This document shows positions 32,503 through 51,109 of a DNA stretch of 53,670 nt, piece by piece. Within the stretch, counting starts at the first letter, position 1. The number at the start of each line of letters is the position of its first letter. The notes under the pieces were generated by a model. That model had not been told where the DNA came from. It saw nothing but the letters and a program-made list of their open reading frames with translations, and did no database searches. Location of the stretch: contig NZ_AJKI01000036.1 in NCBI RefSeq assembly GCF_000259075.1, positions 1 to 53,670 on the forward strand. The letters run 5' to 3'. This stretch comes from Marinilabilia salmonicolor JCM 21150 (GTDB lineage Bacteria; Bacteroidota; Bacteroidia; Bacteroidales; Marinilabiliaceae). The position numbers and the translations under genes were made by a program.

Positions 32503-33753
32503 TTAATCCACAAACAGCCTTTTGGCATGTCGCTCATAAAGATTCTCAAAAACACACTGGCCTACAATATCGGCATGTTTCTTTAGCAGCATATTGTATT
32601 GGTCTATTCTCTCTGCGGCCAGTTTGTAGCCCACATGCACCAGCTGACGAAGATTGGAATTGTATTGGAGATGTTCAGGGATATGTCTCAGTGCATTGGC
32701 AAACTCTTCACCTGTCCAGCCTTGCACTTCCATTGCAGAAGGAAGTTTGTTTTCGTCAATATCGATGACATCAGCATATGGGGCGCAAAGTTTTTTCACA
32801 TCGGTTAATGCCCTGGAATACAGGTTTTTTACAAACACCAACGCTTCCCCTCCGGCCAGCGCCAGTCCGATGACTTCTTCCAGCCAGGTAGTTCCGGCTG
32901 TTTTCAGGTGAAAACCCTTGTTGTGTTTTTTGGATAATTCTTTGATGATGGGATAGATGGAAAATTTGTCGGAACCCGAATGAATACTGAGTTTTAACTC
33001 TTCCGGAAGGCCGAACTGCAGAATGGCAAAGTCAATGACCATCAGGTTGGCTTCATACTCGGTGTTAAAGGCATTGAGGTCACCGACATAATCTACTCCT
33101 TTATTAAAGCGTCCGGTAAATTTGGGAGCTATGGTTTGTGCCGGTACATTGTAATGAGCCAGCATCGCCAGAATAAAAAACAGCTCCACCGGAGTCTGTG
33201 GATTGGGAACTTCATCCATAGAGACTTCCGTTATGAAGTTGCCTTTGCCTTTTTCTGCTTCAATTCTTTTATAGGTTTCTCCTGCCATTTGAGTGGCATA
33301 CAGATATTGATCAGCGATGTCGCGTAACATCTCTTCTGTAATATTGAAGGCAGTTTTCAATCCGGGGACTTCAAGGTTGCCGATGAATTGTCTCATTTCC
33401 CCCATGAAATCCTCTTCTTCTTTAGCCTCACTTTTTTCCCCGATATAGGAAGCCACATCGATGGTAAAAAAGTTAGAGGTTCTCAGGAAACGATCCACTG
33501 TATCAAGGTTTACATGGTCAGCATCTATAAACCATTGTTTGCTGTATCCGGCTTCTTTGATGCTTTCTTCGGCAGCCCTTAATGTGTCTGCCGGCTCACT
33601 GCCAATAGTGGTATGTTCCCGGTTTGATTTATTCCATACCGGGGTGATTTCAACTCCGTTTTTCTGTGCTTCAATTATGGTTTTTAACTGCCATGCGGCC
33701 TGATGGGCAAAACGATCGCCCATGCCAAATGAATACCTGGATAGTTTCTTCAT
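32503..33753 (-). CDS. uxaE: Tagaturonate epimerase family protein
   Basis: Converts D-tagaturonate to D-fructuronate, which lets galacturonate enter the mannonate route without tagaturonate reductase (UxaB) and altronate dehydratase (UxaA), neither of which is seen here. Recognised by the family opening YSFGMGDRFAHQAAWQL and the conserved core (APKFTGRFNKGVDYVGD, SIHSGSDKFSIYPI, LHLKTAGTTWLEE-like FHLKTAGTTW). Acidic and His residues in these motifs fit a metal-dependent epimerase. Full length, 416 aa, cytoplasmic, no signal peptide. It lies apart from the other pathway genes, 214 bases after the LacI gene, with a repeat copy in the gap. Confidence 0.85.
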   Translation of the reverse strand: MKKLSRYSFGMGDRFAHQAAWQLKTIIEAQKNGVEITPVWNKSNREHTTIGSEPADTLRAAEESIKEAGYSKQWFIDADHVNLDTVDRFLRTSNFFTIDVASYIGEKSEAKEEEDFMGEMRQFIGNLEVPGLKTAFNITEEMLRDIADQYLYATQMAGETYKRIEAEKGKGNFITEVSMDEVPNPQTPVELFFILAMLAHYNVPAQTIAPKFTGRFNKGVDYVGDLNAFNTEYEANLMVIDFAILQFGLPEELKLSIHSGSDKFSIYPIIKELSKKHNKGFHLKTAGTTWLEEVIGLALAGGEALVFVKNLYSRALTDVKKLCAPYADVIDIDENKLPSAMEVQGWTGEEFANALRHIPEHLQYNSNLRQLVHVGYKLAAERIDQYNMLLKKHADIVGQCVFENLYERHAKRLFVD

Positions 33754-33967: not shown

Positions 33968-35011
33968 CTAACTAATAGTAAGTACCTCGGTATTGATAAT
34001 TTCAACCGGCTGAAACTCATGTTTCATTGTGATGGTATGCGTGGTCATATATTCAAAAAGGCGTTTCACTGCTTTTTCCGATTGCTCCATAGGTTTTTGT
34101 CCGATGAGGAAGTCAATAATGCCTCTTTTCAAGTAATCGGCATTCTTTCGCGTCATTTCATAGCCAACCAATATGGCGTTGATCCGTTTTTTTTCCAGAT
34201 ATCGGGCAACAACATGCGTTTTAGCGCTGGAAACGAGAAAAGCTCCGATATTAGGATTGTTTTGAAGTATATGGTCCATTTTTTCTTCAACTGTTTCCTG
34301 GTCGGTGGTAGGGATTTCCACGGTTATTTTCATCCCGTTGTTCTTCCCGGCATCCAGGAAATAGCTCAAAAATCCCTGATTCCTTCGGTTCAGGTGCTGT
34401 GTATTTTCCAGATCTTTGGCAAGATTCACAATTAGGATGTCTTTTTCGGGAGCCAACCCAAAATCGATAAGACTGGCAGCAACTCTGCCACCCTGAAAGG
34501 CATCTTCACCAATAAAAGCAGTGCAGTTGGTATTGTCAATGAAGGTGTCTATAAAAATGTAAGGAATACTCTTTTTATCCAGATCATCGCAAAATCTGAT
34601 AGCTTCCTTTTTCAGAATTGGAGCCATTATTACTCCATCAGGGAGATTACTTAGAATTTCGTTGGTTTTTTCAATAAAATCAGTCTCATTGTGCAATTCA
34701 AAAAGCCGGTAATCAATTTCTAATGAAAAGGGATGAAGATCATGAACTGCTTTTTCAATGCCCTTGGGATGTGCAAGCCAATAAACATTGTCATCGCCAC
34801 CTTTGGGTATCAGGACAGAAAATTTATAGGTCTTTTTAGTCGTGAGTGCCTGGGCTACAATGTTGGGCTGGTAATTCATTTCTTTGGCAATGGTCAAAAC
34901 CTTTTCCTTTGTCTTTTTTGCAACCTCACCTCGATTGTGCAATACCCTGTCAACGGTACCTATGGAAACATTTGCTTTTTCGGCGATATCTTTGATTCTG
35001 ACTGGTCTCAT
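33968..35011 (-). CDS. LacI/GalR-family transcription regulator
   Basis: DNA-binding regulator with N-terminal LacI helix-turn-helix (IKDIAEKANVSIGTVDRVLHNRG, hinge NYQPNIVAQAL) and a periplasmic-binding-protein-like effector domain (about 60-340; VLIPKGGDD, PDGVIMAPI, FIDTFIDN). Length 347 aa is normal. GTVDRVLH instead of GTVSRVL is typical of a Bacteroidota subgroup near uronate and pentose genes. It lies between the TRAP transporter genes and uxaE, so it probably controls one or both in response to a uronate intermediate; the ligand is not known. Confidence 0.9.
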   Translation of the reverse strand: MRPVRIKDIAEKANVSIGTVDRVLHNRGEVAKKTKEKVLTIAKEMNYQPNIVAQALTTKKTYKFSVLIPKGGDDNVYWLAHPKGIEKAVHDLHPFSLEIDYRLFELHNETDFIEKTNEILSNLPDGVIMAPILKKEAIRFCDDLDKKSIPYIFIDTFIDNTNCTAFIGEDAFQGGRVAASLIDFGLAPEKDILIVNLAKDLENTQHLNRRNQGFLSYFLDAGKNNGMKITVEIPTTDQETVEEKMDHILQNNPNIGAFLVSSAKTHVVARYLEKKRINAILVGYEMTRKNADYLKRGIIDFLIGQKPMEQSEKAVKRLFEYMTTHTITMKHEFQPVEIINTEVLTIS

Positions 35012-35389: not shown

Positions 35390-36694
35390 TTAATATCCGA
35401 ATAAATCTGGTACCCAAAGGGAAATTTCCGGAATAAATGTTACCAGCAACAGCACTACAAACATGGCAATGTAGAACGGTATCAAGGGTTTTACAAGATC
35501 CTGTATTTTCAATTTGGCTACGCTACAACCAATAAATAATACCGCTCCTACCGGAGGAGTAACGAGTCCCACATTCAGGTTCAGGATCATGATGATACCG
35601 AAATGAATTGGATCGAGCCCCAGCTGGGTGGTCACAATGGGCAGGAATATGGGCGTAAAGATCAGCACGGCTGGTGTCATATCCATGAATATTCCCACAG
35701 CCAGCAACGCCAGATTAATGATCAAAAGAATTACAAACGGATCTGATGAAAGGGAGAGCAAAGCATTACTCACCGTTGCCGGAATGTTTTCGAACGACAT
35801 CACCCATGAAAGACCTATGGATGCAGCAATCAGCAACAATACCATGCCGGCCGTCCTTACTGTGTTGATAATAATTACCGGGAGGTGTTTTACGGTGATT
35901 TCTTTATAGATGAGTGCGAGCACTAGACTGTAAACTACTGCAATGGCGGCGGCTTCGGTGGCCGTGAATATACCGGCAATGATTCCCCCGATAACAACTA
36001 CGAGCATCATCAGACTGGGGATTGCGTCCAGAAACTTTTTCACTCCTTCTGTGAATGGGATTTTGTCTCCGACCGGATATTTTTTCCGGTAGGCGTATAC
36101 TGACCCCACCAGCATGATGGCCAGACCTGTTAAAATACCGGGTACATATCCGGCAAGAAATAAGGCGGCAATTGAGGTTCCTCCACTAGCCAGGGCATAT
36201 ACAATGAGGATATTACTGGGAGGTATGGACAGTCCGGTGGTGGCTGATGTTACGTTGATGGCCGCAGAAAAACTTTTGTCGTACCCTTCTTCTTTCATGC
36301 GTGGTCCCATGATGGTTCCAATGGCTGAAGCAGACGCTGCAGCAGATCCTGAAATGGCACCAAATAGCATATTGGCAGTAACGTTTACCAGTGCAAGACC
36401 ACCCGGAAGGCGCCCGACAAGCACTTTGGCAAATTCGATGAGTCGCATAGCGATGCCCCCCGAATTCATCAGCTGACCGGCCAGTATGAAGAACGGTATG
36501 GCTAACAGGGAAAAACTTTCAAGCCCGGTTGCCATCCTTTGGGCCATGGTGGAAAAAGCGGGTAACACATCGAAACTAACCAGCATGGTAGCCATGGCTG
36601 ACAGCCCGATGCTATAGGCAATAGGAGTACCTATTACCAGAAAGAATACAAATGAGGAGATCAGGACAATAATGCCCAACATATCTAGTTCCAT
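35390..36694 (-). CDS. dctM: TRAP transporter large permease subunit
   Basis: Inner-membrane ion-coupled transport subunit, about 12 membrane segments across 434 aa. Family marks are GTPIAYSIGLSA near the start, GLALVNVTANMLFGAISGSAAASASAIG, SATTGLSIPPSNILIVYAL and GLVTPPVGAVLFIGCSVAK. Works with the small permease (12 bases upstream in the operon) and the solute-binding DctP. Context inside a uronate cluster suggests uptake of hexuronates or a related sugar acid across the inner membrane. Confidence 0.95.
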   Translation of the reverse strand: MELDMLGIIVLISSFVFFLVIGTPIAYSIGLSAMATMLVSFDVLPAFSTMAQRMATGLESFSLLAIPFFILAGQLMNSGGIAMRLIEFAKVLVGRLPGGLALVNVTANMLFGAISGSAAASASAIGTIMGPRMKEEGYDKSFSAAINVTSATTGLSIPPSNILIVYALASGGTSIAALFLAGYVPGILTGLAIMLVGSVYAYRKKYPVGDKIPFTEGVKKFLDAIPSLMMLVVVIGGIIAGIFTATEAAAIAVVYSLVLALIYKEITVKHLPVIIINTVRTAGMVLLLIAASIGLSWVMSFENIPATVSNALLSLSSDPFVILLIINLALLAVGIFMDMTPAVLIFTPIFLPIVTTQLGLDPIHFGIIMILNLNVGLVTPPVGAVLFIGCSVAKLKIQDLVKPLIPFYIAMFVVLLLVTFIPEISLWVPDLFGY

Positions 36695-36706
36695 GATAAT
36701 TCTGTT

Positions 36707-37183
36707 TTACTTTTTATTTGCATTAATCAGATTAATGATGTCATCGATGCTGTAATAGATCATCAACAGCCCGCTTATTGGGACAATAGAGTAAACATAT
36801 CCCAGCGGAACCTGTAGTGCTGAGGATACCTGTCCCATCTGGAAACGGGTGTAAACCAGCCAGGCTCCACCTACTACCATAATAGTGAGACTGAATATGA
36901 TAATCAGAAAGTTGATGAAGACCAACAATCTGTTTTTGTTTTGAGGCTGTAGTTTGTCCGGGAGGATATCTATGGCCAGGTGTTCATTTTTCCCTTTTAC
37001 GTAAGCTGCGCCGGCCATTCCTACCCAAATCAGCAGAAAAACTGCCAGTTCGTCGGTAAAAGAGCTGGGGTTGGACAAAAGATAGCGGCTGGCAACCTGC
37101 CAGACCACATCAAGCACCAATGTACTTGTCAAAATGACAAGAAAGACCTCCAGTATTTTATCAATTTTTGCTCTCAGATGCAT
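36707..37183 (-). CDS. dctQ: TRAP transporter small permease subunit
   Basis: 158-aa membrane protein with four predicted helices, the DctQ pattern (LLSNPSSFTDELAVFLLIWVGM-type second helix with the conserved E of the DctQ family, AYVKGKNEHLAID loop). It partners with DctM, 12 bases downstream, and DctP, 14 bases upstream in the operon. The three together form one complete tripartite transporter. Confidence 0.93.
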   Translation of the reverse strand: MHLRAKIDKILEVFLVILTSTLVLDVVWQVASRYLLSNPSSFTDELAVFLLIWVGMAGAAYVKGKNEHLAIDILPDKLQPQNKNRLLVFINFLIIIFSLTIMVVGGAWLVYTRFQMGQVSSALQVPLGYVYSIVPISGLLMIYYSIDDIINLINANKK

Positions 37184-37197
37184 GTCAATATTGATTT

Positions 37198-38241
37198 TTA
37201 GTTTTTAGTTTCTTCTTCATTTACCGGCTCAACGGAACTGCTGTCCATCGCTGCTTCCGTATTGGTCTCTGCCGCCTTAATTCGCTCGATGAGCGCACTT
37301 AATTCTTCATTGTCTTCGTAAAGATCATATACGCTCTGAACTGCATCTCTGAAAGGCTGTTTATCCGGGATGATGATTTCCACGCCTTCTTTTTCAAGTG
37401 ACTCGAGTGCTTCTTTTTCCGATTTCATCCACTCTTTTCTTTGCACTGTTACCGACTCTCTGACAGCCTGCATGAGCCATTCTTTTTCCTGGTCATCCAG
37501 TTTCTTAAGTGCATGAGTACTCATAAGAAGGACATCCGGGATTCGTGTATGCTCGTTAAGTGTGTAGTAATTGCAGACTTCGTAATGGTGAGACAGGTAA
37601 AAGCTGGGGGGATTGTTTTCGGCACCATCAACCACTTTTCCCTGCAGGGCAGTGTACAATTCACCCCACGAAATAGGCGTAGGGGATCCTCCCATGGCGC
37701 GGATCATGGCAAATGAAGTAATACTGGGCATTACCCTCATTTTAAGTCCTGAAAGATCTTCTGGTTTGCGGATGGGACGTGAAGAATAGAAACTTCGGGC
37801 TCCTGCATCGTAAAAACAGAGTCCCTGAAGCCAGTATTTTTCCCCTTTGGACAGAATTTCCTTTCCCAGCGGTCCATCCATAACCGAAAAAGCATGTTGC
37901 TGATCGGCAAAGATGTAAGGAAGTCCGAACACTTTGTATTCTTCCACAAAGCCTTCCAGGGCAGCAGCAGAGACTTTTGTCAGATCCAGGCTTCCCAGTT
38001 GAAGTAACTCCAGACTTTCGCGTTCTGAGCCCAGTACACCACTGGGGTAAATGTCAATCTTCAGCTTGCCGTCTGACAGTTCTTCCACTCTTTTGGCCAT
38101 ATATTCCATGGCGATGTGCACCGAGTGTTTGGTGTCGAGAGAGTGTCCCAGTTTCAGTACTCTTACATCTGATTTTAAGCCACATCCACCGGCAAAAAAC
38201 AGTACCATAAGTAAAGAAACAATGATTTGTTTGTTCATCAT
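37198..38241 (-). CDS. dctP: TRAP transporter solute-binding lipoprotein
   Basis: Captures an organic acid in the periplasm and hands it to DctQM. The start at 38241 (MMNKQIIVS) gives a signal peptide with lipobox FAGGC (Cys20); the frame also reads upstream to 38280, but with a charged leader. Key marks: KLGHSLDTKHSVHIAMEY, the GLKMRVM strand with the conserved Arg that contacts the carboxylate, and GKVVDGAENNP. Anchoring as a lipoprotein is common in Bacteroidota. The C-terminal tail of about 30 residues is Glu/Ser-rich and looks disordered. It lies 126 bases after gnd, with a strong hairpin between. Confidence 0.94.
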   Translation of the reverse strand: MMNKQIIVSLLMVLFFAGGCGLKSDVRVLKLGHSLDTKHSVHIAMEYMAKRVEELSDGKLKIDIYPSGVLGSERESLELLQLGSLDLTKVSAAALEGFVEEYKVFGLPYIFADQQHAFSVMDGPLGKEILSKGEKYWLQGLCFYDAGARSFYSSRPIRKPEDLSGLKMRVMPSITSFAMIRAMGGSPTPISWGELYTALQGKVVDGAENNPPSFYLSHHYEVCNYYTLNEHTRIPDVLLMSTHALKKLDDQEKEWLMQAVRESVTVQRKEWMKSEKEALESLEKEGVEIIIPDKQPFRDAVQSVYDLYEDNEELSALIERIKAAETNTEAAMDSSSVEPVNEEETKN

Positions 38242-38329
38242 CAGAATAATGTCTTTGTCCTGATATCCACGAAAAGCCAATGCTTGTCAGGATGTCAAGG
38301 AAACAGGTTGTTGAATTTAATGGAGTTGA

Positions 38330-38367: not shown

Positions 38368-39822
38368 TTACACATTGTATGTGGAGGAGGCAGTGGTACC
38401 ACCGCGACCGGTCCAGTTGGTGTGGAAAAATTCACCTCTTGGCTTGTCAATTCTTTCGTAGGTGTGTGCCCCAAAATAATCTCTTTGAGCCTGCAGCAGG
38501 TTGGCCGGAAGTCGGTCGTTGCGATAACCGTCATAGTAATTCAGAGCAGTGGCAAAAGCAGGAGTGGGGATTCCGTTTTCTATGGCTTTCGAAACTACCC
38601 GACGCCAGCCTGCCTGGGCTTTATCCACCACTTCTTTGAAGAAGGGGGCCAGCAACAGGTTTGTGAGATTTGAATCAGCATCGTAGGCTTCTTTGATTTT
38701 GTTCAGAAATACTGAACGAATAATACATCCGCCTCGCCACATTAAAGCAATACCTCCGTAATTGAGGTTCCAGCCATGTTCTTCTGCTGCAGCACCCATC
38801 AATGCGTAGCCCTGAGCGTAAGAAATGATTTTCGAAGCATAAACGGCATCATGCAAATCCTTCAGAAATGCTTTTTTGTCTCCCTGAAATTCAGGTTTTG
38901 GTCCAGTGAGGATTTTTGAAGCTTGTACACGTTCTTCTTTGATAGCGGAAAGACATCTGGAAAATACGGCCTCCCCAATGAGTGTAAGCGGAATGCCAAG
39001 ATCCAGCGCCGAAATACCGGTCCATTTCCCGGTTCCTTTCTGCCCTGCAGTGTCAAGGATTTTTTCCACCAGGGGCTCGCCATCTTCATCTTTGTAGGCC
39101 AGAATGTCACGGGTGATTTCGATAAGGTAGGAGTCCAGTGGACCTTCGTTCCACTCCCTGAAAACTTCATGCATCTCGTCGGCTGACATACCCAGCAGCT
39201 CTTTCATGATGTGGTAGGCCTCGTTGATGATTTGCATATCGCCATATTCGATGCCGTTGTGCACCATTTTTACAAAATGTCCGGCCCCTTTTTCGCCAAC
39301 CCAGTCGCAGCATGGCGTGCCGTCTTCAACTTTGGCGGCAATAGACTGAAAAATGGGTTTAACAGCTTCCCAGGCTTTGGGAGAACCTCCCGGCATGATG
39401 GAAGGCCCCAGCAGCGCACCTTCTTCACCACCCGAAACTCCGGTGCCAATATAAAGCAGACCTTTGCTTTCAACATATTCTGTTCTTCTGGTGGTGTCGG
39501 GGAAGTGGGTGTTTCCCCCGTCAATCAAAATATCGCCAGGCTCCAGGAGAGGAATGAGGCTGTCAATCAGTTTGTCCACCGCAGGTCCTGCTTTGACCAT
39601 CATCATTACCTTGCGGGGACGTTCCAGTGACTTGACAAGCTCTTCAAGAGTATGTGTACCTTTGATGTTTTTGCCTTTGGCTCGTCCTTCCACGAAATTG
39701 TCCACTTTTTCAGTAGTCCGGTTATATACCGACACCTGAAAACCTTTACTTTCCATATTGAGAACCAGGTTTTCGCCCATTACGGCCAACCCAATCAATG
39801 CTATGTCTGATAATTCTTTCAT
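38368..39822 (-). CDS. gnd: 6-phosphogluconate dehydrogenase, decarboxylating
   Basis: Oxidises 6-phosphogluconate to ribulose-5-phosphate and CO2 with NAD(P)+. Start at 39822 (MKELSDIALIG) chosen because the Rossmann motif GLAVMGENLVLNM then sits at the usual place; the open frame extends to 39876. Marks: IDGGNTHFPDTTRR, GTGVSGGEEGALLGPSIMPGG, KMVHNGIEYGDMQ and the C-terminal helical domain ending in TNWTGRGG. Length 484 aa is full. A pentose-phosphate enzyme inside a uronate cluster is notable. It follows the LarA-like gene by 93 bases holding a small GC-rich repeat, suggesting joint use of gluconate-type intermediates. Confidence 0.95.
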   Translation of the reverse strand: MKELSDIALIGLAVMGENLVLNMESKGFQVSVYNRTTEKVDNFVEGRAKGKNIKGTHTLEELVKSLERPRKVMMMVKAGPAVDKLIDSLIPLLEPGDILIDGGNTHFPDTTRRTEYVESKGLLYIGTGVSGGEEGALLGPSIMPGGSPKAWEAVKPIFQSIAAKVEDGTPCCDWVGEKGAGHFVKMVHNGIEYGDMQIINEAYHIMKELLGMSADEMHEVFREWNEGPLDSYLIEITRDILAYKDEDGEPLVEKILDTAGQKGTGKWTGISALDLGIPLTLIGEAVFSRCLSAIKEERVQASKILTGPKPEFQGDKKAFLKDLHDAVYASKIISYAQGYALMGAAAEEHGWNLNYGGIALMWRGGCIIRSVFLNKIKEAYDADSNLTNLLLAPFFKEVVDKAQAGWRRVVSKAIENGIPTPAFATALNYYDGYRNDRLPANLLQAQRDYFGAHTYERIDKPRGEFFHTNWTGRGGTTASSTYNV

Positions 39823-39885
39823 GATATTATGTCTTTTAATGTTCTTGTATTTGTGGATGCTTTTTGCTTCATGCACCGCTCTTGG

Positions 39886-39915: not shown

Positions 39916-41190
39916 TTAATCTGTAAACCTGTCTTTATGGGCCCACAGACCAACTGCCGGATTGGATATGTAAAAAATTTCCTCCCCGTCAGGCATGATG
40001 TTTCTGCCGTCTTTCAGCTTCTCCGGGTTATACTTTTGAGTCATTTCTTTCAAATCGGCATATTTGAAATTGACTGATTCAATTTCTTCTTTGGACAGAT
40101 GCCCCGGACAATAGGTGATGGAAAAACGATCTTCTGAGCTGCCGTGGATCAGGTGTGCTGCAGCACCAAGATTGTCTCTCAGGTCCTGATTTTTCTCTGT
40201 AGCTTTGAGGGTGGCAGGGGTACCAAAATAACCATATTTTCTGATTAGTTGATCTATGGTTTTGTCTTCACCGAATTCTTTGAGACCCGGAGCCAGTACA
40301 ATGAGCTCTCCGCCATCGGCAAGTGCCATACGTGTGCGGTAGATGCTTTTATTGCCCAGCCAGGTACTTTTAAACTCTGATGGATCAAGATAAACCACCA
40401 CTTTTTTCAATGGCTCATCTACTATTTCAAAATTGACCTTGATGGATAAATCAGCAGCCAACTCGAATACTTCCTCATCGTCGCCAATAAAAATGCCTTT
40501 GGGAACAAGATTTCCTTCATTGTCGCGACCGATGACAGTTTGTACGTAAATGACAGGCAGATGAGATGCAAAGTGTTCTGAGGCATAGTTCAGTACCCGT
40601 CTTACAGGGTTGTTGGCACGGCCCATGATTCTTTCCATGCCGTAAGCTGCACCGATAAAATGGCTTTTGTTGATGCCTTCGGATCCGCCTGTTCCCACAA
40701 AAATATTTTTGTTGTAATTGGCCATACCAATAACTTCATGAGGGACGACCTGACCGATGGAAAGAATGAGGTCGTGTTCGCCTTCGTTTAACAGTTTGTT
40801 TACCTGAGCCGGCCAGTCATAGTCAATTCTTCCGTCGGTGATTTCCGAGATGTAACTTCCGGGAACTACGCCCAGAGTTACAATGTCATTGCGCCAGTCG
40901 TGTATTCTGAACAGTTCTTTGGGAACCCCCGGAAACATGTGATCGATCTGCTCATCTGTCATAGGACTGTGCGTCCCTAGGGCAGGCAGAATATCTGTCA
41001 ACTTTTCTTTATAAAAATCATACGCATAAGTCGTAAGTTCACCGGCCTTGGAGTGGTATCTCGTGTAGTCAGGGGGGACAACCAATACTTTTTTCTTTGA
41101 GCCCAGTTTTTTCAATGCAGAAAAAAGTGCCTTTTCCAGGTCTTTTGGACTCAATGCTTCAGTTTCTGATCCTTGTTGATAAAATACCAT
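39916..41190 (-). CDS. LarA-type nickel-pincer-dependent racemase/epimerase homologue
   Basis: Member of the lactate-racemase (Lar_N/DUF2088) superfamily, which inverts the hydroxyl carbon of 2-hydroxyacids using a nickel pincer nucleotide bound to a Lys. The catalytic set of L. plantarum LarA (H108, H174, K184, H200) has counterparts H74 (LGTHSP), H151 (VVPHEVIG), K161 and H177 (NKSHFIG). The spacing 174-184-200 is exactly kept as 151-161-177. Full length, 424 aa, cytoplasmic. No larB, larC or larE in the window, so the cofactor must be made elsewhere. Next to gnd and uxuA, the likely substrate is a sugar acid, for example mannonate/gluconate, not lactate. A palindrome lies 96 bases upstream. 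Confidence 0.85.
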   Translation of the reverse strand: MVFYQQGSETEALSPKDLEKALFSALKKLGSKKKVLVVPPDYTRYHSKAGELTTYAYDFYKEKLTDILPALGTHSPMTDEQIDHMFPGVPKELFRIHDWRNDIVTLGVVPGSYISEITDGRIDYDWPAQVNKLLNEGEHDLILSIGQVVPHEVIGMANYNKNIFVGTGGSEGINKSHFIGAAYGMERIMGRANNPVRRVLNYASEHFASHLPVIYVQTVIGRDNEGNLVPKGIFIGDDEEVFELAADLSIKVNFEIVDEPLKKVVVYLDPSEFKSTWLGNKSIYRTRMALADGGELIVLAPGLKEFGEDKTIDQLIRKYGYFGTPATLKATEKNQDLRDNLGAAAHLIHGSSEDRFSITYCPGHLSKEEIESVNFKYADLKEMTQKYNPEKLKDGRNIMPDGEEIFYISNPAVGLWAHKDRFTD

Positions 41191-41285: not shown

Positions 41286-41303
41286 AATCCATTCAAATGG
41301 ATT
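41286..41303 (-). promoter_or_regulatory. Palindrome upstream of the larA-like gene, candidate operator
   Basis: AATCCATTCAAATGGATT has 8-base arms around a CA centre and lies 96 bases before the start of the larA-like/gnd unit. Its symmetry and place suggest a dimeric repressor site; no protein can be named. Confidence 0.4.
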
Positions 41304-41329
41304 ATTTTTCCTAAGCGAATCTTCTCAAA

Positions 41330-41355
41330 CCGGAGCAAAAATGAAATTGCTCCGG
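41330..41355 (-). terminator. Terminator after the uxuA-kinase unit
   Basis: CCGGAGCAA (41330-41338) pairs perfectly with TTGCTCCGG (41347-41355), loop of 8, 29 bases past the stop of the kinase gene. The T-run is longer on the plus side, but the position fits the end of the minus-strand operon from uxaC. Confidence 0.65.
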
Positions 41356-41383
41356 CTTTTTACATACATCAAATAATCATGAA

Positions 41384-42463
41384 TTATCTTTTTACTCTGG
41401 CATTTCCACTCCAGAGGCTCCATACCATTTCTTCGTCTGCCGGTTGAGCATAGTCTGTCAGAAATGTGGTGGCCAAAGCTCCCGTAGCCCATCCGAATTG
41501 TATCCATTTTTCAGGAGCCCACTCCTTCAGAATTCCATAAAGTAATCCACCAACAAAACCATCGCCTCCGCCAATGCGATCAAGTACGCGAATGGGACGA
41601 GGCTCAATAACTTGCCAGTTATCGCCTTGAAGCATGATGGCTCCCCACAAGTGTTCATTTGCACTTACAACTTCGCGCAGGGTGTTTGCAAATACGGATG
41701 CATTTGGGAAGGCTTCTTTTACCCGCATAATCATCTCTTTGAAACTGTCAATTTTTTCACCAATGGCTTTTCCGCCTGCTTCGGGGCCTTTGATTCCCAG
41801 GCAAAGCTGAAAGTCCTCTTCGTTTCCAATTAAAACATCGGATACTGATGCTATTTCAGTAAAGATGTCCCGAAGCTCTTGTTCCCGTCCTTCCCAGAAA
41901 GTGGCACGATAATTCAGGTCGAAAGAAATCAGTGTGCCATGTTTTTTGGCCGAACGTGCTACTTCAAGGCAAAAGTTACTGGTATCGGGAGATAGGGCAG
42001 CGATTAATCCTGAAAGATGGACAATTTGAACACCTTCCTCGCCAAAAATTCTTTCCAGATCAAAATCTTTGGCGTTCAGGGTGCGGCCCACCTCTCCTGC
42101 ACGGTCGTTTTGAACCCGTGGTCCGCGACCACCGTAACCGCTGTCGGCAATATTAAACTGATGGCGATACCCCCAGGGGTCTCCCTGCTCAACTTCGGAA
42201 CCTTCATAATCCATGTGGCGGTTACGCAGGTTACTTTTGATGAATTTCGCAACAGGACTTCCTTTTACAAAAGTTGTGAGTACTTTAACGGGTAAGCCCA
42301 GGTATGATGATATACTGGCAACATTCGTTTCGGCACTGGTGGCCTGCATTTTGAATGTATCGCTGCTGTGAACGGGTTGACCGTTTTCGGGTGTAATGCG
42401 TACCCCCATGCTGGTGGGGACCAGCATGGAGTATTTACAGGATTTTTTGAGTTGTAGATTCAT
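41384..42463 (-). CDS. PfkB-family sugar kinase, divergent KdgK paralogue
   Basis: Ribokinase-fold kinase of the 2-keto-3-deoxygluconate (KDG) kinase group. The second PfkB signature RIGGGDGFVGGLLYG contains the catalytic Asp and anion hole; SFDLNYRATFW and GNEEDF match KdgK. It differs from the kinase at 45479-46513 by a longer N-terminus and an insertion of about 30 residues near 95-125 (GYGGRGP region). Length 359 aa. It follows uxuA by 21 bases, so it is in the main operon. It may be a second KDG kinase or act on another sugar acid such as gluconate; sequence alone does not decide. Confidence 0.82.
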   Translation of the reverse strand: MNLQLKKSCKYSMLVPTSMGVRITPENGQPVHSSDTFKMQATSAETNVASISSYLGLPVKVLTTFVKGSPVAKFIKSNLRNRHMDYEGSEVEQGDPWGYRHQFNIADSGYGGRGPRVQNDRAGEVGRTLNAKDFDLERIFGEEGVQIVHLSGLIAALSPDTSNFCLEVARSAKKHGTLISFDLNYRATFWEGREQELRDIFTEIASVSDVLIGNEEDFQLCLGIKGPEAGGKAIGEKIDSFKEMIMRVKEAFPNASVFANTLREVVSANEHLWGAIMLQGDNWQVIEPRPIRVLDRIGGGDGFVGGLLYGILKEWAPEKWIQFGWATGALATTFLTDYAQPADEEMVWSLWSGNARVKR

Positions 42464-42484: not shown

Positions 42485-43720
42485 TTAGAATGCTTTACTT
42501 GAGTGTTCATTATAGATTACTCCGCTTTTGCGGATGCCCATTTCCAGCCCTCTGAGTTCAGCCATCCCTCTGAGTAATCCTATGGCTGAATATCCTGGAT
42601 TGGTTTTTTTCCCTAAGTCGTCAAGGATGGTATGACCATGATCCGCACGCATCGGAATAATCTCATCACGACGGTTTTGCGCATGTCTTTTTTTCTGTTC
42701 TTTTATGACATTGACCATTACATTATACATGTCTACATTTCCTCTCAGATGGCTGGCTTCATGAAAACTATTGTTGCTGTCGCGTTGAGTACTTCTAAGG
42801 TGAAGAAAGTTGATTCTCGATCCCAGTCTTTGCACAATACCGGGGAGATCATTGTCGGGGCGTACTCCAAGAGAACCTGTACAAATACACAATCCGTTGT
42901 TAATGGAATCTGTTATATTTGTGATAAACTGCAGGTCAGATTCGGTGCTAACCACTCTTGGAAGGCCAAAGAGTGAAATCGGTGGATCATCGGGGTGAAT
43001 CGCCAGGCGGACGCCGGACTCCATGGCAACGGGGATGATTTGTTCCAGGAAGTATTTTAGATTTTGGCGGTATTTTTCGGAATTAATGTCTTTGTATTCG
43101 CTTAATTTATTTCTGAAGCTTTCGATGTCATAACCTTCCTGACCTCCCGGCAAACCTGCAATGATGTTCTTCTGAAGAATGTATTTTTGTTCCTCACTCA
43201 TTGAGCTAAAACTGCTTTTAGCTTTTTTTATGATTTCTTCTGAGTAGTCATTCTCTGCCTGGTCGCGTTTTAATATGAACATATCGAAAGCGGCAAAGTC
43301 AATATAGTTAAAAGCCAGAGCCAGGGCACCATCATCCAATTGCATTTCAAGATTGGTGCGTGTCCAGTCTACCACGGGCATCCAGTTGTAAGTTAGCACC
43401 GGAATGCCGGCTTTTCCAACATTACGGATACTTTCCTTGTACTTCTTAATCCATTCATCACGATTGGGTTTCCCCTGTTTTATGTCCTCATGAACCGGAA
43501 TGCTTTCAATAACTGACCATGTCAACCCTCTTGGTTGAGCCGGACTAACACTGTCATCCCATTCTATGGTTCTTTTTCGTTCTTCTATGGTTTCCAATGT
43601 CCATACTTCCCCTATGGGTATTTCGTGTAACGCTGTTACAATTCCTGTAGCTCCTGCCTGCCTTATGTCTTTTAATGATACCGGATCATTTGGTCCATAC
43701 CATCTCCATGTTTGTTCCAT
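42485..43720 (-). CDS. uxuA: Mannonate dehydratase
   Basis: Dehydrates D-mannonate to 2-keto-3-deoxy-D-gluconate (KDG), a metal-dependent TIM-barrel enzyme. Marks: [12 protein letters not shown] start, [28 protein letters not shown], metal-site HPDDPP, CTGSLG and [12 protein letters not shown]. Length 411 aa is full. Cytoplasmic. It lies 33 bases after the SDR gene and 21 bases before the PfkB paralogue, within the tightly packed operon, and carries out the step after fructuronate reduction. Confidence 0.96.
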
Positions 43721-43753: not shown

Positions 43754-44608
43754 TTAAACCCCGCTGTAAGCACTGAACCCTCCATCAACGGGGATGACAA
43801 TTCCGGTGATAAACTCTGACCAGTCGGATAACAGGAAAGTAAGTGCTCCTGTAAGTTCCTCAGGGCTTCCATAACGTTCCATGGGAGTTCCGTTCATGAT
43901 CTTTTGTCCCCTGGGAGTGGATGCTCCTGTTTTCTCATCCACCAGCAGAAAGCGATTCTGATTGGTCAGCAAAAAGCCTGGTGCAATGGCGTTGACTCGA
44001 ACTCCGGTTTTTGCAAAATGTACTGCCAACCATTGAGTAAAGTTGTTAATGGCTGCTTTGGATGCCGAATAAGCCGGAATTCTCGTCAGTGGACGATAAG
44101 AATTCATGGAGGAAATATTGACAATTCCGCCTTTCCCGCTTTTTACCATATCAGTGGCAAATACCATAGTGGGGAGTAATGTTCCCTGGAAATTGAGTGC
44201 AAAAGTTTTATCAAAACCCTCCTGTTTAAGGCCGAAAAAAGTGTCCTCCAGGTTATCGAGGTCTGATTCTTCAATTTTTTCCACCTTGGAGGTTGCGGTG
44301 GCAGCATTTCCTCCGGCACCATTAATCAGGAAGTCTATATCTCCCAGTTTTTCATTGATCTCTTTTTTTGCAGCTTCCAGCATACTTTTATTTAGTACGT
44401 CGGCAGTGAAACCGATACTTTCTGTGCCGTAAGCTTGCCTTATTTCCGCGGCTACTTTATCAGCTGTTTCTTTGTCGCGATCCAGAATGGCTGTTTTAAC
44501 CCCCTTTATGGCCAGAGCTTTGGCCATGACTGAGCAAATGACGCCACCACCACCGGTGACAACAGCTACTTTTCCTTCAATATTGAGTTCTTTGATTGGT
44601 GCGTCCAT
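43754..44608 (-). CDS. uxuB: SDR-family D-mannonate oxidoreductase (fructuronate reductase)
   Basis: Reduces D-fructuronate to D-mannonate. This is the short-chain dehydrogenase type used by many Bacteroidota, unrelated to E. coli UxuB (a long-chain polyol dehydrogenase), so the symbol marks function rather than homology. Cofactor motif TGGGGVICSVMAKAL, NGAGG, catalytic SSMNSYRPLTRIPAYSASK (Ser, Tyr, Lys) and C-terminal VDGGFSAYSGV are visible. Length 284 aa. Two bases separate it from kdgA and 33 from uxuA, which supports its place in this pathway. Confidence 0.88.
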   Translation of the reverse strand: MDAPIKELNIEGKVAVVTGGGGVICSVMAKALAIKGVKTAILDRDKETADKVAAEIRQAYGTESIGFTADVLNKSMLEAAKKEINEKLGDIDFLINGAGGNAATATSKVEKIEESDLDNLEDTFFGLKQEGFDKTFALNFQGTLLPTMVFATDMVKSGKGGIVNISSMNSYRPLTRIPAYSASKAAINNFTQWLAVHFAKTGVRVNAIAPGFLLTNQNRFLLVDEKTGASTPRGQKIMNGTPMERYGSPEELTGALTFLLSDWSEFITGIVIPVDGGFSAYSGV

Positions 44609-44610
44609 AA

Positions 44611-45285
44611 TTAAGCAGTTTTTATTTCTTTAATGGTATTGATTAGTTCAGTGACTCTGGCAGTCAATGCTGTAAAATCTCCTTTTTCAATGGTTCCTTT
44701 TGGGAATAGTTTAGATCCCATTCCAACACAGGTAACACCTGCATCAAACCATTTCTGAAGATTGTCTTTTGACGTATCCACTCCTCCTGTGGGCATAATG
44801 TTTGTCCAGGGACAGGGGCCTTTTACGCCTTTTACGAAGGAAGGGCCGCCAACTTCTGAGGCAGGGAATATTTTCACCAGTTCTGCCCCCAGCTCTTCTG
44901 CTTTACCGATTTCTGAAACAGATCCGCAACCCGGTGCCCACATTACCTTACGACGGTTGCACACGCGCGCCATGTTCTCATTTAAAAGAGGAGAGACGAT
45001 GAAGTTCGCTCCGGCCTGGATGTATATGGCTGCGGTGCCTTCTTCCACGACTGAGCCGGCACCCAGAATCATGCCGGGCAGCTCTTTGAGTGCATATTTG
45101 TTCAATTCACTAAAGATTTCATGGGCGAAATCGCCTCTATTGACCCACTCAAATGTTCTGATGCCTCCATCGTAACAGGCTTTCAGTACATTTTTTGCAA
45201 CTTCAATATCTGCATGATAAAACACAGGAACCACACCGGTTTCCTGCATCTTCTGGAATACTTCTATCCTTGTATATTTTGCCAT
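44611..45285 (-). CDS. kdgA: KDPG aldolase (2-dehydro-3-deoxy-6-phosphogluconate aldolase)
   Basis: Splits 2-keto-3-deoxy-6-phosphogluconate into pyruvate and glyceraldehyde-3-phosphate. Class I aldolase of 224 aa with TIM-barrel motifs VVPVFYHADIE, GAGSVVEEG, FIVSPLLNENMARVC and the Schiff-base Lys in VKIFPAS; PTGGVDTS follows. Final step of the pathway. Starts an inner set kdgA-uxuB-uxuA-kinase, separated from kdgK by 193 bases that include a purine/pyrimidine-biased tract. Confidence 0.96.
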   Translation of the reverse strand: MAKYTRIEVFQKMQETGVVPVFYHADIEVAKNVLKACYDGGIRTFEWVNRGDFAHEIFSELNKYALKELPGMILGAGSVVEEGTAAIYIQAGANFIVSPLLNENMARVCNRRKVMWAPGCGSVSEIGKAEELGAELVKIFPASEVGGPSFVKGVKGPCPWTNIMPTGGVDTSKDNLQKWFDAGVTCVGMGSKLFPKGTIEKGDFTALTARVTELINTIKEIKTA

Positions 45286-45478: not shown

Positions 45479-46513
45479 CTATCTCGAAACCCGGCCGGAA
45501 GCATCTCCGCCCATTAGTTTTTCTACTTCCTCAACGGTTACCTGATTAAAATCTCCGGGAATGGTGTGTTTCAGGCAGGATGCAGCTGTCCCGAATTGCA
45601 AAGCCCTTTCATCATTGTCGTAGGTCAGTAATCCGTATATTAATCCTCCCATGAAAGAGTCACCACCACCCACACGATCCACGATGTGCGTTATTTGGTA
45701 AGTGGGGGCAGTGTAGAGGTTTTTACCATCGTAAAGAACTCCGGACCAGCTGTTGTGATTGGCGCTGATGGATCCTCGCAATGTGGTAATAACTTTCTTA
45801 ACCCGCGGGTATTGTTTCATGATTTGCTGTGAAACACTGCGGTAGGCTTCGGCTTCCACATGTCCTCCGGTTACATCTACTCCTTCAGGCTTGATGCCCA
45901 GCACCATCTCGGCATCTTCTTCATTGCCAAGTACCACATCACATCCTGCTACCAGTCCGGGCATCACATCTCCGGCTTTCTTCCCGTATTTCCACAGGTT
46001 TTTGCGATAGTTCAGATCGCACGATACCGTGACGCCTTTTGCGTTGGCCGCTTTAATGGCTTCTAGACATACGTCAGCAGCTTCCTGCGAAACGGCAGGC
46101 GTGATTCCTGTCCAGTGAAACCAGTCAGCTCCGTCGAAAATTTCATCCCAGTTGAAGGATCCCGGTTGAACTGACGAAAAGGAGGAATGTGCTCTGTCAT
46201 AAACTACCTTGCTTGCACGTGCAACAGCCCCTGTTTCCAGGAAGTAGATTCCGAGACGCTCACCGCCATATTGAATGTGACCGGTATCTACACCATATTT
46301 GTCAAGATCCATTCGGCAGGCACGGCCTATGTCATTGTTGGGCAGACGGGTGATAAACCTGGAGTCCAGACCATAGTTGGCCAGTGAAACAGCTACGTTG
46401 GCTTCTCCTCCTCCATAATTCACATCGAATGATGTGGCTTGTGTAAATCTTTGGTAGCCCGGAGTGGAAAGCCTGAGCATTATTTCTCCGAAAGTGACAA
46501 CTTTTTTACTCAT
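45479..46513 (-). CDS. kdgK: 2-Keto-3-deoxygluconate kinase
   Basis: Phosphorylates KDG to KDPG. PfkB fold, 344 aa: N-terminal VVTFGEIMLRLSTPG and NYGGGEANVAVSLANYG, middle CDLNYRKNLW and GNEEDAEMVLG, C-terminal RVGGGDSFMGGLIYG with the catalytic Asp. These are the classic KdgK features, so this is the better KDG kinase candidate of the two in the window. It follows uxaC by 33 bases, second gene of the minus-strand operon. Confidence 0.95.
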   Translation of the reverse strand: MSKKVVTFGEIMLRLSTPGYQRFTQATSFDVNYGGGEANVAVSLANYGLDSRFITRLPNNDIGRACRMDLDKYGVDTGHIQYGGERLGIYFLETGAVARASKVVYDRAHSSFSSVQPGSFNWDEIFDGADWFHWTGITPAVSQEAADVCLEAIKAANAKGVTVSCDLNYRKNLWKYGKKAGDVMPGLVAGCDVVLGNEEDAEMVLGIKPEGVDVTGGHVEAEAYRSVSQQIMKQYPRVKKVITTLRGSISANHNSWSGVLYDGKNLYTAPTYQITHIVDRVGGGDSFMGGLIYGLLTYDNDERALQFGTAASCLKHTIPGDFNQVTVEEVEKLMGGDASGRVSR

Positions 46514-46546: not shown

Positions 46547-47941
46547 TTAAAACCCGAAGTACTCTTTTGCATTTTTATAAGAGATTCCTTCCACAAGGTT
46601 TTTGAGAATTTCCTTGTCGTTGGGGATTACTCCTTTGTCCACCTCTTTTCCGATGTGGTTACAGGCAATTCTTCTGAAGTACTCATGACGTGGGAAGGAG
46701 AGGAAGCTTCTGGAATCAGTGACCATGCCTACAAATCGGGACAGTAAGCCAAGGACAGATAAATCATTGAGATGCTTCTCCATGCCTACCTTTTGATCCA
46801 GGAACCACCATGCTGCTCCATATTGCATTTTCCCCGGAACTGATCCGTCCTGGAAATTACCAATCATGGTTACAAAGGTTTCGTTGTCGGCAGGATTTAA
46901 GTTGTAAAGAATGGTTTTGGTGAGTTGATTATTGGTGTCCAGGCTGTCAAGAAATCTTGATAATTTGAAGCTGTCCTGTGGTTGTCCAATGGAGTCAAAT
47001 CCGGTATCAGGGCCTAATTTTTTGAATAATCGGGTGTTGTTGTTTCGCATGGCGCCTAGGTGAAATTGTTGTACCCATCCACGCTTATGGTTCAGTTTAC
47101 AGAGTTCCTGCATCAGGGCGAATCGGTAACCTTCAGTTTCAGTTTCTGTTAGTTTTTTACCAACTCTCAGCTTTTTAAATGCTTTCTCCGGATCGATGCC
47201 GGCATCATCTGTCCAATACATGCGATCCAGTCCGTGATCGGAAGCACGACATCCCATTTTATCGAAATAAGCATGACGTTCATCCAGCACTGAGAGAAGA
47301 TCCGCATAGCTGTTGATGCTTTTGCCTGCCGCTTTTTCTAATTTCTGAATGTAACTGTTGAAAACCGTCGGGTCATCTGTCTTGATTAAGTTGTCAGGGC
47401 GCCATGTTGGACGAACCTTTACATGAAAGTCTTTTAAACTGGCATGATGTTTCAGGCTGTCAGCAGGATCATCGGTGGTCCCTATTACTTCCACGTTCAT
47501 TTTATTAAGAATACTCTTTATGGAGAAATCCTTGTGACGAAGCATCTCTGAAGCATCATGATAAATGGTGTCTGCAGTTTTGGGATTCAATAAATCAAAA
47601 ATATTGAAGTATCGTGCCAATTCCAGATGCGTCCAATGATATAAGGGGTTTCCAACTGTGTGGGGAACTGTTTCTGCCCATTTAATGAATTTTTGGTAGA
47701 AATCGGGAGACCCGGTGCAGAATTCTTCATCAACACCATTGGTGCGCATGGCCCTCCATTTATAATGGTCGCCTTCCAACCAAACCTGCCCCAGATTGTC
47801 GAAATTATGATCCTCGGCAATGAGTTGGGGAGAGAGGTGACAGTGAAAGTCGATGATGGGTTGATTCTCCGCAAACTCATGGTAGATTTCACGCGCTGTT
47901 TCTCCTTCGAGGAGAAAATCAGGATGAATGAAGTTTTTCAT
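46547..47941 (-). CDS. uxaC: Glucuronate (uronate) isomerase
   Basis: Isomerises D-glucuronate to D-fructuronate and D-galacturonate to D-tagaturonate: the entry step for both uronates. Amidohydrolase-fold, 464 aa, with metal motif DFHCHLSP near residue 33, conserved HFDNLGQVWLEGDHYKWRAMR-like segment, HGLDRMYW and TDSRSFLSFPRHEYFRR at the C-terminal end. First gene of the minus-strand operon; 346 bases separate its start from the divergent lacI. With uxaE, both uronates reach fructuronate. Confidence 0.96.
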   Translation of the reverse strand: MKNFIHPDFLLEGETAREIYHEFAENQPIIDFHCHLSPQLIAEDHNFDNLGQVWLEGDHYKWRAMRTNGVDEEFCTGSPDFYQKFIKWAETVPHTVGNPLYHWTHLELARYFNIFDLLNPKTADTIYHDASEMLRHKDFSIKSILNKMNVEVIGTTDDPADSLKHHASLKDFHVKVRPTWRPDNLIKTDDPTVFNSYIQKLEKAAGKSINSYADLLSVLDERHAYFDKMGCRASDHGLDRMYWTDDAGIDPEKAFKKLRVGKKLTETETEGYRFALMQELCKLNHKRGWVQQFHLGAMRNNNTRLFKKLGPDTGFDSIGQPQDSFKLSRFLDSLDTNNQLTKTILYNLNPADNETFVTMIGNFQDGSVPGKMQYGAAWWFLDQKVGMEKHLNDLSVLGLLSRFVGMVTDSRSFLSFPRHEYFRRIACNHIGKEVDKGVIPNDKEILKNLVEGISYKNAKEYFGF

Positions 47942-48287: not shown

Positions 48288-49310
48288 ATGGTCAAAAAGA
48301 GAGTAACCATAACAGACATCGCCCTTGAAATGGGCATTACTCCATCCACTGTGTCGCGTGCTTTAGCTGGAAATCAGCGGGTGAGGGTTGATACGCGTGA
48401 ACGGGTATTAAACGTGGCTGCAAAGATGGGATACCAGCCTAATGTGCTGGCGTCTTCTCTGAGAAGCGGGCGAAGCGATACCATAGGGATGGTGGTACCT
48501 CGTATTAACCGTCATTTTTTTAGTCATGTCATTAGTGGTGTGGAAGCCGTTCTTAATCCCGCCGGTTACAATCTGCTTATTAGTCAAACACACGAAAGGC
48601 AGGAGCATGAAATCAAAGCCTTCTCTACATTGTTGCGCAACCGGGTTGCCGGCATAATTGTTTCTCATTCTGTGGAGACGCAAACTTTCGAGCACTTTCG
48701 TCAGATAATTGATGAAGAGATTTCACTGGTGCAATTTGACCGGGTTACGGAGCAGGTTCCGGGACCACGGATTGTGAATGATAATTTTCTCGGGGCCTTG
48801 CGAAGTACGCAGCATCTTATAAAAAACGGATGCCGCAGAATTGCTCATTTTGCCGGAGCTTTGCATGTTAATGTTTACGAGCAACGGCTGGATGGTTATC
48901 GTTATGCATTGGAGCAGGCCGGGATTGACGTTGATCCAGCGCTTATTGTGGAGAATTGTATTGTACAGGAAGCCGGTATGGAGGCTGTGGAAAATGTAAT
49001 TGTTCCACAGCAGGTAGATGGAATATTCGCTGCAAGTGATTTGTCTGCTTTGGGGGCCATCCGCACACTTAAAGAGTTGAATATTGCCATTCCTGAAAAG
49101 GTGAAGATTTCAGGTTTTGCCAACGAGCCATTTGCCGAAATGATTGACCCCACACTAACCAGTGTTGAACAGAATGCTTTTGAAATGGGAAATCAGGCAG
49201 CCAGGTCAATGATTGAGAGTCTTGGTAAAGAAGATCCGGTAAGCGAGGAGATTCATATTCCGGTTCGATTGATTCAACGAAGATCATCTGTTTTGAATAA
49301 TAGTATTTAA
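48288..49310 (+). CDS. LacI/GalR-family transcription regulator of the kdu genes
   Basis: Repressor-type regulator, 340 aa. N-terminal HTH VTITDIALEMGITPSTVSRAL, hinge MGYQPNVLASSLRSG with the minor-groove Leu region, then the periplasmic-binding-like effector domain (IGMVVPRINRHFFSHVISGVE, DGIFAASDLSALGA, SGFANEPFAEMIDPTLTSVEQ). First gene of a co-directional set, 19 bases before kduI. The palindrome CAAACGTTTG 28 bases before its start is a likely own operator. It may also act on the divergent uxaC operon. Likely effector: a uronate breakdown product such as KDG, by context only. Confidence 0.93.
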   Translation: MVKKRVTITDIALEMGITPSTVSRALAGNQRVRVDTRERVLNVAAKMGYQPNVLASSLRSGRSDTIGMVVPRINRHFFSHVISGVEAVLNPAGYNLLISQTHERQEHEIKAFSTLLRNRVAGIIVSHSVETQTFEHFRQIIDEEISLVQFDRVTEQVPGPRIVNDNFLGALRSTQHLIKNGCRRIAHFAGALHVNVYEQRLDGYRYALEQAGIDVDPALIVENCIVQEAGMEAVENVIVPQQVDGIFAASDLSALGAIRTLKELNIAIPEKVKISGFANEPFAEMIDPTLTSVEQNAFEMGNQAARSMIESLGKEDPVSEEIHIPVRLIQRRSSVLNNSI

Positions 49311-49329
49311 CAACTAAAAAGATAAAGTT

Positions 49330-50166: not shown

Positions 50167-50286
50167 GGTGCTTTGGAGAAATTCAATGGAGAATTGGTGT
50201 TGCTTGTAAAGGAAGTGTTTTAACCTTTCTTGCAACATCAGTTTTTACCTTTCAGCGAACTTAAATTTTTTGACAACTTAAAACGA

Positions 50287-51090: not shown

Positions 51091-51109
51091 CCCTTTAAAA
51101 TCTTTTGCT

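Follow-up and report, generated by a model that had tools for sequence, protein, structure and literature searches.

What does a LarA-like protein do in a row of uronate genes of Marinilabilia salmonicolor JCM 21150 (Marinilabiliaceae), beside a gene for 6-phosphogluconate dehydrogenase? The window, that is the whole stretch of 53,670 nt analysed here (contig NZ_AJKI01000036.1), had been read in an earlier note as carrying a mannonate-gluconate-6-phosphogluconate branch. This reading gained support from the family and predicted fold of the protein, from the presence of larB, larC and larE in the genome and from a candidate kinase of the PfkB family. In our opinion, the protein, called here LAR18 (LarA homologue, group 18), is probably a nickel-pincer-nucleotide (NPN)-dependent mannonate/gluconate epimerase feeding uronate carbon via the kinase pfkB2 and Gnd, with gluconate formed before phosphorylation; the substrates, direction and kinase specificity are our reading of the observed gene content, conservation, predicted fold and co-occurrence.

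The LAR18 gene (39916..41190) lies on the minus strand, begins with ATG and encodes 424 amino acids of a proposed NPN-dependent D-mannonate/D-gluconate 2-epimerase; the earlier call of a LarA-like epimerase, made without strand, was confirmed. Against NCBIfam NF052594, 'nickel-dependent putative hexonate epimerase' (LarAH group 18), it scored 676.6 bits (cut-off 500), and against Pfam Lar_N (PF09861) 35.2 bits (cut-off 23.3). Since these scores are far beyond chance, and LAR18 occurs in 29 of 71 family genomes, a chance ORF at this place was ruled out. LAR18 is by score a member of NF052594, a family whose name is itself a prediction, and in a Lar_N search of its own genome it was the sole match. 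Assignments as a lactate racemase (NF033504, only 17.9 bits against a cut-off of 460) or as a malate racemase of the LarAH5 or LarAH6 type (NF052595, 31.2 bits against 462; NF052593, 35.4 bits against 500) were rejected.

The solved structure closest to LAR18 by sequence is 4NAR (E 8e-38), GntE2 (LarAH20), the D-gluconate 2-epimerase of Thermotoga maritima (PMC7583248), whereas LarA itself (2YJG) was matched at just E 0.011. The AlphaFold model (pLDDT 83.9, with low confidence in two stretches close to the active site, 153-161 and 166-172) likewise had 4NAR as its top structural match (TM 0.79/0.80; 25% identity in the Foldseek alignment), and all 19 PDB chains matching it at E <= 0.001 were 4NAR and LarA-type enzymes. 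LAR18 is thus predicted by its model to have the LarA fold. Judged by HMM, sequence and fold comparison, it groups with gluconate 2-epimerase and not with lactate or malate racemases, the opposite of what the earlier note had named as evidence against its proposal.

The active site agrees with this grouping. The LarA catalytic residues D72, H108, H174 and K298 correspond to D41, H74, H151 and K281 of LAR18, and the NPN-binding R75, K184 and H200 to R44, K161 and H177; the LarA positions are those listed in PMC7583248, and the mapping was made via alignments of LarA (2yjg) and 4NAR, for K281 via 4NAR only. These seven residues are the same in all 20 aligned sequences (LAR18 of the window and 19 relatives), so that the four catalytic positions claimed previously are indeed retained. 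The numbering H151-K161-H177 was also right, with spacings of 10 and 16 as in H174-K184-H200 of LarA (PMC7583248). The same 20 sequences share a loop E152-V153 behind the catalytic His, and W277; in the GntE signature of groups 18 to 20 an E, V/S loop follows the catalytic His and a Trp stands in helix 11 (PMC7583248). For GntE, an A-H pair at LarA W358 and T359 is expected by PMC11770544. A345-H346 of LAR18 align with A351-H352 of 4NAR, at a place with no direct LarA alignment, and PMC7583248 puts W358 at N348 of GntE2; because the two papers place LarA W358 on different GntE2 residues, this pair was counted neither way.

That the LarA superfamily includes a D-gluconate 2-epimerase, as stated in the earlier note, is borne out by Desguin 2020 (PMC7583248), where mannonate-gluconate epimerisation was shown for groups 19 and 20 and a hexonate was hypothesised for group 18; a eukaryotic GntE was added by Urdiain-Arraiza 2024 (PMC11770544). 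Our literature search, with most subscription journals outside its reach, found no activity assay of any group 18 member, and likewise no PfkB gluconokinase and no LAR18-type operon in Bacteroidota.

The gene row on the minus strand runs uxaC, pfkB1, eda, uxuB, uxuA, pfkB2, LAR18, gnd, dctP-dctQ-dctM, lacI, uxaE. It begins with uronate isomerase (uxaC, 46547..47941; PF02614, 656 bits), a probable 2-keto-3-deoxygluconate (KDG) kinase (pfkB1, 45479..46513; E 7e-109 to the KDG kinase 2afb), KDPG/KHG aldolase (eda, 44611..45285; PRK07114, 360 bits, > 275) and a uxuB-type SDR, D-mannonate oxidoreductase (43754..44608; PRK08277, 384.4 bits against 281), so the mannonate source named previously does stand in the row of LAR18. 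Mannonate dehydratase (uxuA, 42485..43720; TIGR00695, 531.2 bits) and the PfkB-family gene pfkB2 (41384..42463) follow. Directly downstream of LAR18, as had been noted, is gnd (38368..39876; TIGR00873, 776.2 bits, > 426.7); its listed start is GTG at 39876, and ATG at 39822 is likelier, giving 484 amino acids as in relatives. The row ends with a TRAP transporter, dctP-dctQ-dctM, probably for uronate uptake (35390..38280; PF03480, PF04290, PF06808), a LacI-family regulator recurring in the loci of relatives (33968..35011) and tagaturonate epimerase (uxaE, 32503..33753; PF16257, 188 bits). Some relatives have an MFS gene in place of the transporter (seen in L098).

Divergently, on the plus strand, lacI2-kduI-kduD (48288..51090) form a probable unsaturated-uronate branch feeding KDG (kduI, 421.6 bits, > 250). 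The kduD name was given from the position beside kduI; the top NCBIfam match of this SDR (50230-51090) is PRK07097, 'gluconate 5-dehydrogenase' (432.8 bits, > 369), and because of this label gluconate might have another source, which was counted against our explanation. After this gene a DUF4861 protein is encoded at 51080-52318 (PF16153, 303 bits). At the other end of the window, 35-31645 is a polysaccharide utilisation locus with a hybrid two-component regulator, a TonB-dependent receptor/SusD-like pair and GH2, GH3 and GH5 proteins.

A hairpin on the minus strand (41290..41395; 12-bp stem, -26 kcal/mol, z -3.1), with no U-run behind it on that strand, separates pfkB2 from LAR18, and this separation was also counted against the proposed cooperation of the two genes. 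The top-scoring promoter-like match of the region (41328-41301) lies just after the hairpin; across this region, however, sequence matches of promoter or terminator type were about as numerous as in shuffled sequences.

In the proposed route, by which uronic acids of plant walls would be burned via the pentose phosphate pathway, uronates would enter through the TRAP transporter and be converted by UxaC and UxaE to fructuronate, which UxuB would reduce to D-mannonate. LAR18 with its nickel-pincer nucleotide would then invert C2, reversibly turning D-mannonate into D-gluconate; a hydride would pass transiently to the cofactor, a mechanism carried over from LarA. The pfkB2 product would phosphorylate gluconate to 6-phosphogluconate, and Gnd would decarboxylate this to ribulose-5-phosphate, while pfkB1 and eda would handle KDG from kduI/kduD and, if present, from UxuA. 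The gain of NAD(P)H expected previously does not hold: the way from uronate to ribulose-5-phosphate would be redox-neutral because UxuB uses the NAD(P)H that Gnd gives back, as stated for the route of Lactobacillus suebicus (PMC6978723).

The row was compared within a family sample of 71 genomes. LAR18 is present in 29 of them (28 over the cut-off and one, G028, split over two contigs), giving 20 long loci, 7 short loci, the window itself and G028. All 29 LAR18 genomes gave a gnd match, as did 22 of the 42 others, fragments included (21 without the short fragment in G030); G022 has frame breaks in the LAR18 row and gnd pieces that are each below the cut-off, and G002 has 6% contamination. The 20 long loci of relatives contain uxuB in 19, gnd beside LAR18 in 19, pfkB2 in 18 and uxuA in 4. 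There are two gnd copies in all five genomes of the window's genus and one in many other LAR18 genomes; the second copy of the own genome is at G000:C2:51245-52642.

The route requires a gluconate kinase, which the earlier note had left to be found. GntK/IdnK-type gluconokinase had no match by TIGR01313 in the own genome; four of the 71 family genomes were over the cut-off, none of them with LAR18, and exclusion of GntK by LAR18 was rejected as not significant (0/29 against 4/42, p 0.14). The product of pfkB2 (PF00294, 70.5 bits), a proposed gluconokinase (or mannonate kinase), retains the catalytic Asp of the GGGD motif. It matched 2afb at E 1.7e-28 and pfkB1 with 29% identity and is, by sequence, a distant paralogue of pfkB1. 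An orthologue with at least 69% identity was found in 28 of the 29 genomes with LAR18 and in none of the 42 others, where the best match had 35% (Fisher p 6e-19, without kinship correction); since the family genomes are related, such p-values overstate independence. In the only LAR18 genome without pfkB2, G003, the contig begins at LAR18. Because of this distribution, the missing kinase is probably the adjoining PfkB gene, a strong candidate with a predicted specificity. Five of the 28 genomes have pfkB2 away from LAR18, with no informative neighbour of any relocated copy, and this was counted against our explanation.

The distribution of uxuA bears on the significance of the branch. The gene is missing from 16 of the 20 long loci of relatives and, in a genome-wide search with TIGR00695, from 7 of the 29 LAR18 genomes (G036, G002 and G003, at least 98% complete; G038, G039, G028 and G029, 86 to 94%). 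In G036, of the window's genus, the interval from uxaC to gnd holds only uxuB, pfkB2 and LAR18, and a KDG-kinase-like gene lies elsewhere. In such relatives, mannonate would leave through the LAR18 branch. A position parallel to the KDPG route, as proposed earlier, therefore stands for the window, where uxuA is present; in the uxuA-less relatives the branch would instead replace that route from mannonate. The presence of uxuA in the remaining 22 LAR18 genomes was counted against our explanation.

Use of 6-phosphogluconate by the Entner-Doudoroff pathway was rejected: edd exceeded its cut-off (708 bits) in none of the 71 family genomes and in 2 of 14 control genomes. Weaker edd matches in 67 of the 71, with a top score in each genome between 191 and 265 bits, are read as IlvD-type dehydratases; these IlvD/Edd-family proteins could include a gluconate dehydratase, which was likewise counted on the opposite side.

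A nickel-pincer cofactor would have to be supplied by larB, larC and larE, and the check for these genes suggested in the earlier note found all three in a larE-larB-larC cluster on a contig other than that of the window (G000:C2, L004:4109-6426; profile matches). LarB scored 178.7 bits (cut-off 175), and LarE (145.1, cut-off 150) and LarC (83.8, cut-off 90) are slightly below their cut-offs yet in one tight row with larB. LarC of this genome (L004:5623-6426) has 267 amino acids and lacks the C-terminal third, its PF01969 match ending at position 227 of 375; LarC of L. plantarum is given as 46.5 kDa (PMC11796402). Similarly short LarC proteins of 269 and 271 amino acids occur in larE-larB-larC rows of G036 and G031 (L139:9148-9957; L141:8873-9688). 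There is also a second LarE-like gene, G000:C10:209972-210742 (L005), with 251 bits against 145 bits for the copy in the larEBC row; this high-scoring kind is the sole strong larE match in G021 and G024.

With a line of 120 bits drawn by us, larB was found in 25 of 29 LAR18 genomes and 16 of the 42 others. The genomes G023 (91% complete), G025 (99%, one contig) and G053 (99%) gave only weak larB matches (<= 46 bits), no larC match and no larE above 38 bits, whereas the same search found larC in all five other LAR18 genomes queried and larE with at least 127 bits in G036, G021, G024, G001 and G031. G029 (86% complete) has larC but lacks larB, and any larE match there stayed at or below 29 bits. 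LAR18 of G023, G025 and G053 (L095, L089, L096) is intact and keeps all active-site residues; the occurrence of an intact LAR18 in genomes with no larB, larC or larE by these searches was counted against the proposed explanation. In these genomes LAR18 is either idle, or the cofactor is external, or the cofactor genes were missed by the models. Each of the three has uxuA elsewhere in the genome, which is unremarkable because most LAR18 genomes have it.

The comparison was then extended to GTDB species genomes, where at least 571 LAR18 relatives were confirmed among at least 592 pattern matches, and the best 80 were examined; two of these had no LAR18 ORF in the ORF filter, and L142, L143 and L146 are apparently the family loci G031:C37, G009:C137 and G019:C4. 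Going by record titles, these best 80 belong mostly to Bacteroidota, and Ignavibacteria, Verrucomicrobia, an Acidobacterium and a Phycisphaera are represented as well. In 33 of the loci the sequence extends 8 kb or more to each side of LAR18; of these, 29 contain uxuB, 28 gnd, 18 pfkB2 and 4 uxuA. As the count of pfkB2 indicates, the kinase accompanies LAR18 less regularly outside the family, and four of the 33 have none of the four genes; both findings were counted against our explanation.

Other genes adjoin LAR18 in some of these loci. The gene immediately after LAR18 in Edaphobacter lichenicola (L209) encodes a gluconokinase of the GntK type (TIGR01313, 151.9 bits against 113.75). Where pfkB2 is missing, several loci have a phosphofructokinase-like and a HAD-like protein before LAR18 (L181, L182, L195, L213, L220) or after it (L215); the former family was assigned by HMM for L181 and by first residues for L182, L195, L213, L215 and L220, and its role is possibly with sedoheptulose-7-phosphate or as an alternative kinase. 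Some loci also contain a gene for transketolase (in L167), for class II fructose-bisphosphate aldolase (in L181) or, roughly 8.5 kb away from LAR18, for a transaldolase/FSA-family protein (in L100), as expected if carbon exits via the pentose phosphate pathway. A GFO/IDH/MocA oxidoreductase lies between LAR18 and gnd in L148, L153 and L176 (by HMM for L148). The gene pdxB (4-phosphoerythronate dehydrogenase) adjoins gnd in L178:4065-5207 (by HMM) and in L138:8730-9851, L188 and L193 (by first residues), and seemingly also flanks the second gnd copy of the own genome; 4-phosphoerythronate is an inhibitor of Gnd.

The same genes could act in the reverse order, pfkB2 as a mannonate 6-kinase and LAR18 as a 6-phosphomannonate/6-phosphogluconate 2-epimerase, which we regard as unlikely but worth keeping in sight. 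Phosphorylation first was seen in cell extracts of L. suebicus, with the genes left open (PMC6978723), and pfkB2 precedes LAR18 in the gene row and accompanies it in 28 of 29 genomes. The assayed GntEs have high KM values for free D-mannonate (9.4, 17 and 120 mM; 3.8 mM for LarAH10 of another branch), a point on the side of this order that was counted against the preferred one. Members of groups 19 and 20, however, use unphosphorylated mannonate in assays (PMC7583248). The neighbouring kinase in Edaphobacter is of the GntK type, and mannonate is reportedly no substrate of E. coli GntK (Cohen 1950, cited in PMC6978723), although a GntK homologue of L. suebicus is suspected to prefer it (PMC6978723). 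If the reverse order is true, pfkB2-LAR18 would point to the genes of the L. suebicus route, and LAR18 would act on a class of substrates that the texts consulted do not show for the LarA superfamily.

It is very improbable that LAR18 epimerises another hexonate or an aldarate arising in the uronate row. This reading could lean on Desguin 2020 (PMC7583248), where group 18 is given just 'a hexonate' while uronic or aldaric acids are suggested for group 19; however, a row with UxaE and UxuB should yield D-mannonate as its hexonate, gluconate is the partner that suits a kinase and gnd, and the neighbour of the Edaphobacter LAR18 is a gluconokinase. The opposite direction, in which gluconate would become mannonate and be burned through UxuA, KDG kinase and Eda, is hardly credible: epimerisation is reversible, uxuA, pfkB1 and eda share the row and no edd was over cut-off, but the kinase and gnd are retained where uxuA is absent from long loci and whole LAR18 genomes, and uxuB, uxaC and uxaE indicate a uronate feed.

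The preferred reading, gluconate-first epimerisation of mannonate, would tie LAR18 to a defined substrate and pathway, in a group frequent in Bacteroidota and present, among the best 80 of at least 571 relatives, also in Ignavibacteria, Verrucomicrobia and an Acidobacterium. It makes pfkB2 a testable candidate for a novel kinase of sugar acids and offers a way in which genomes with uxaC and uxuB could do without mannonate dehydratase. With two purified proteins it becomes possible to test whether the kinase or the epimerase acts first.

The idea of such a route is already known, since a shunt was proposed for Thermotoga by Rodionova 2012 (as cited in PMC7583248, PMC6978723 and PMC3750489); features of a GntE-gluconokinase-Gnd shunt in the window are gnd and uxuB in the epimerase row. 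What differs here is the Bacteroidota setting, a group 18 epimerase with predicted substrate and a candidate kinase of a different family. The gnd-uxaRED-gntEK genes of T. maritima resemble the window in the company of gnd, uxaE, the mannonate SDR uxaD and gntK (PMC3750489, PMC5673643), and GntE2, the best match of the LAR18 model, shares with LAR18 the superfamily and the catalytic and NPN-binding residues. GntE2 differs in belonging to group 20 instead of 18, in an E-S instead of an E-V loop and in sequence, with 25% identity to LAR18 in the Foldseek alignment; the T. maritima kinase is named gntK, whereas that of the window is of the PfkB family, and many LAR18 relatives, in distinction from T. 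maritima, have no uxuA beside LAR18. GntE1 (LarAH19) of Corynebacterium glutamicum, assayed as D-gluconate 2-epimerase (PMC7583248), has the features of groups 18 to 20 in common with LAR18 but belongs to group 19 and is set apart, as described, by a very high KM and a presumed different native substrate. The isomerase-phosphoketolase route of L. suebicus (Valk 2020, PMC6978723), like the one proposed here, leads from mannonate to 6-phosphogluconate and ribulose-5-phosphate instead of through UxuA; there, however, the kinase acts first, 6-phosphomannonate is then epimerised by products of genes not identified in that work, and phosphoketolase follows.
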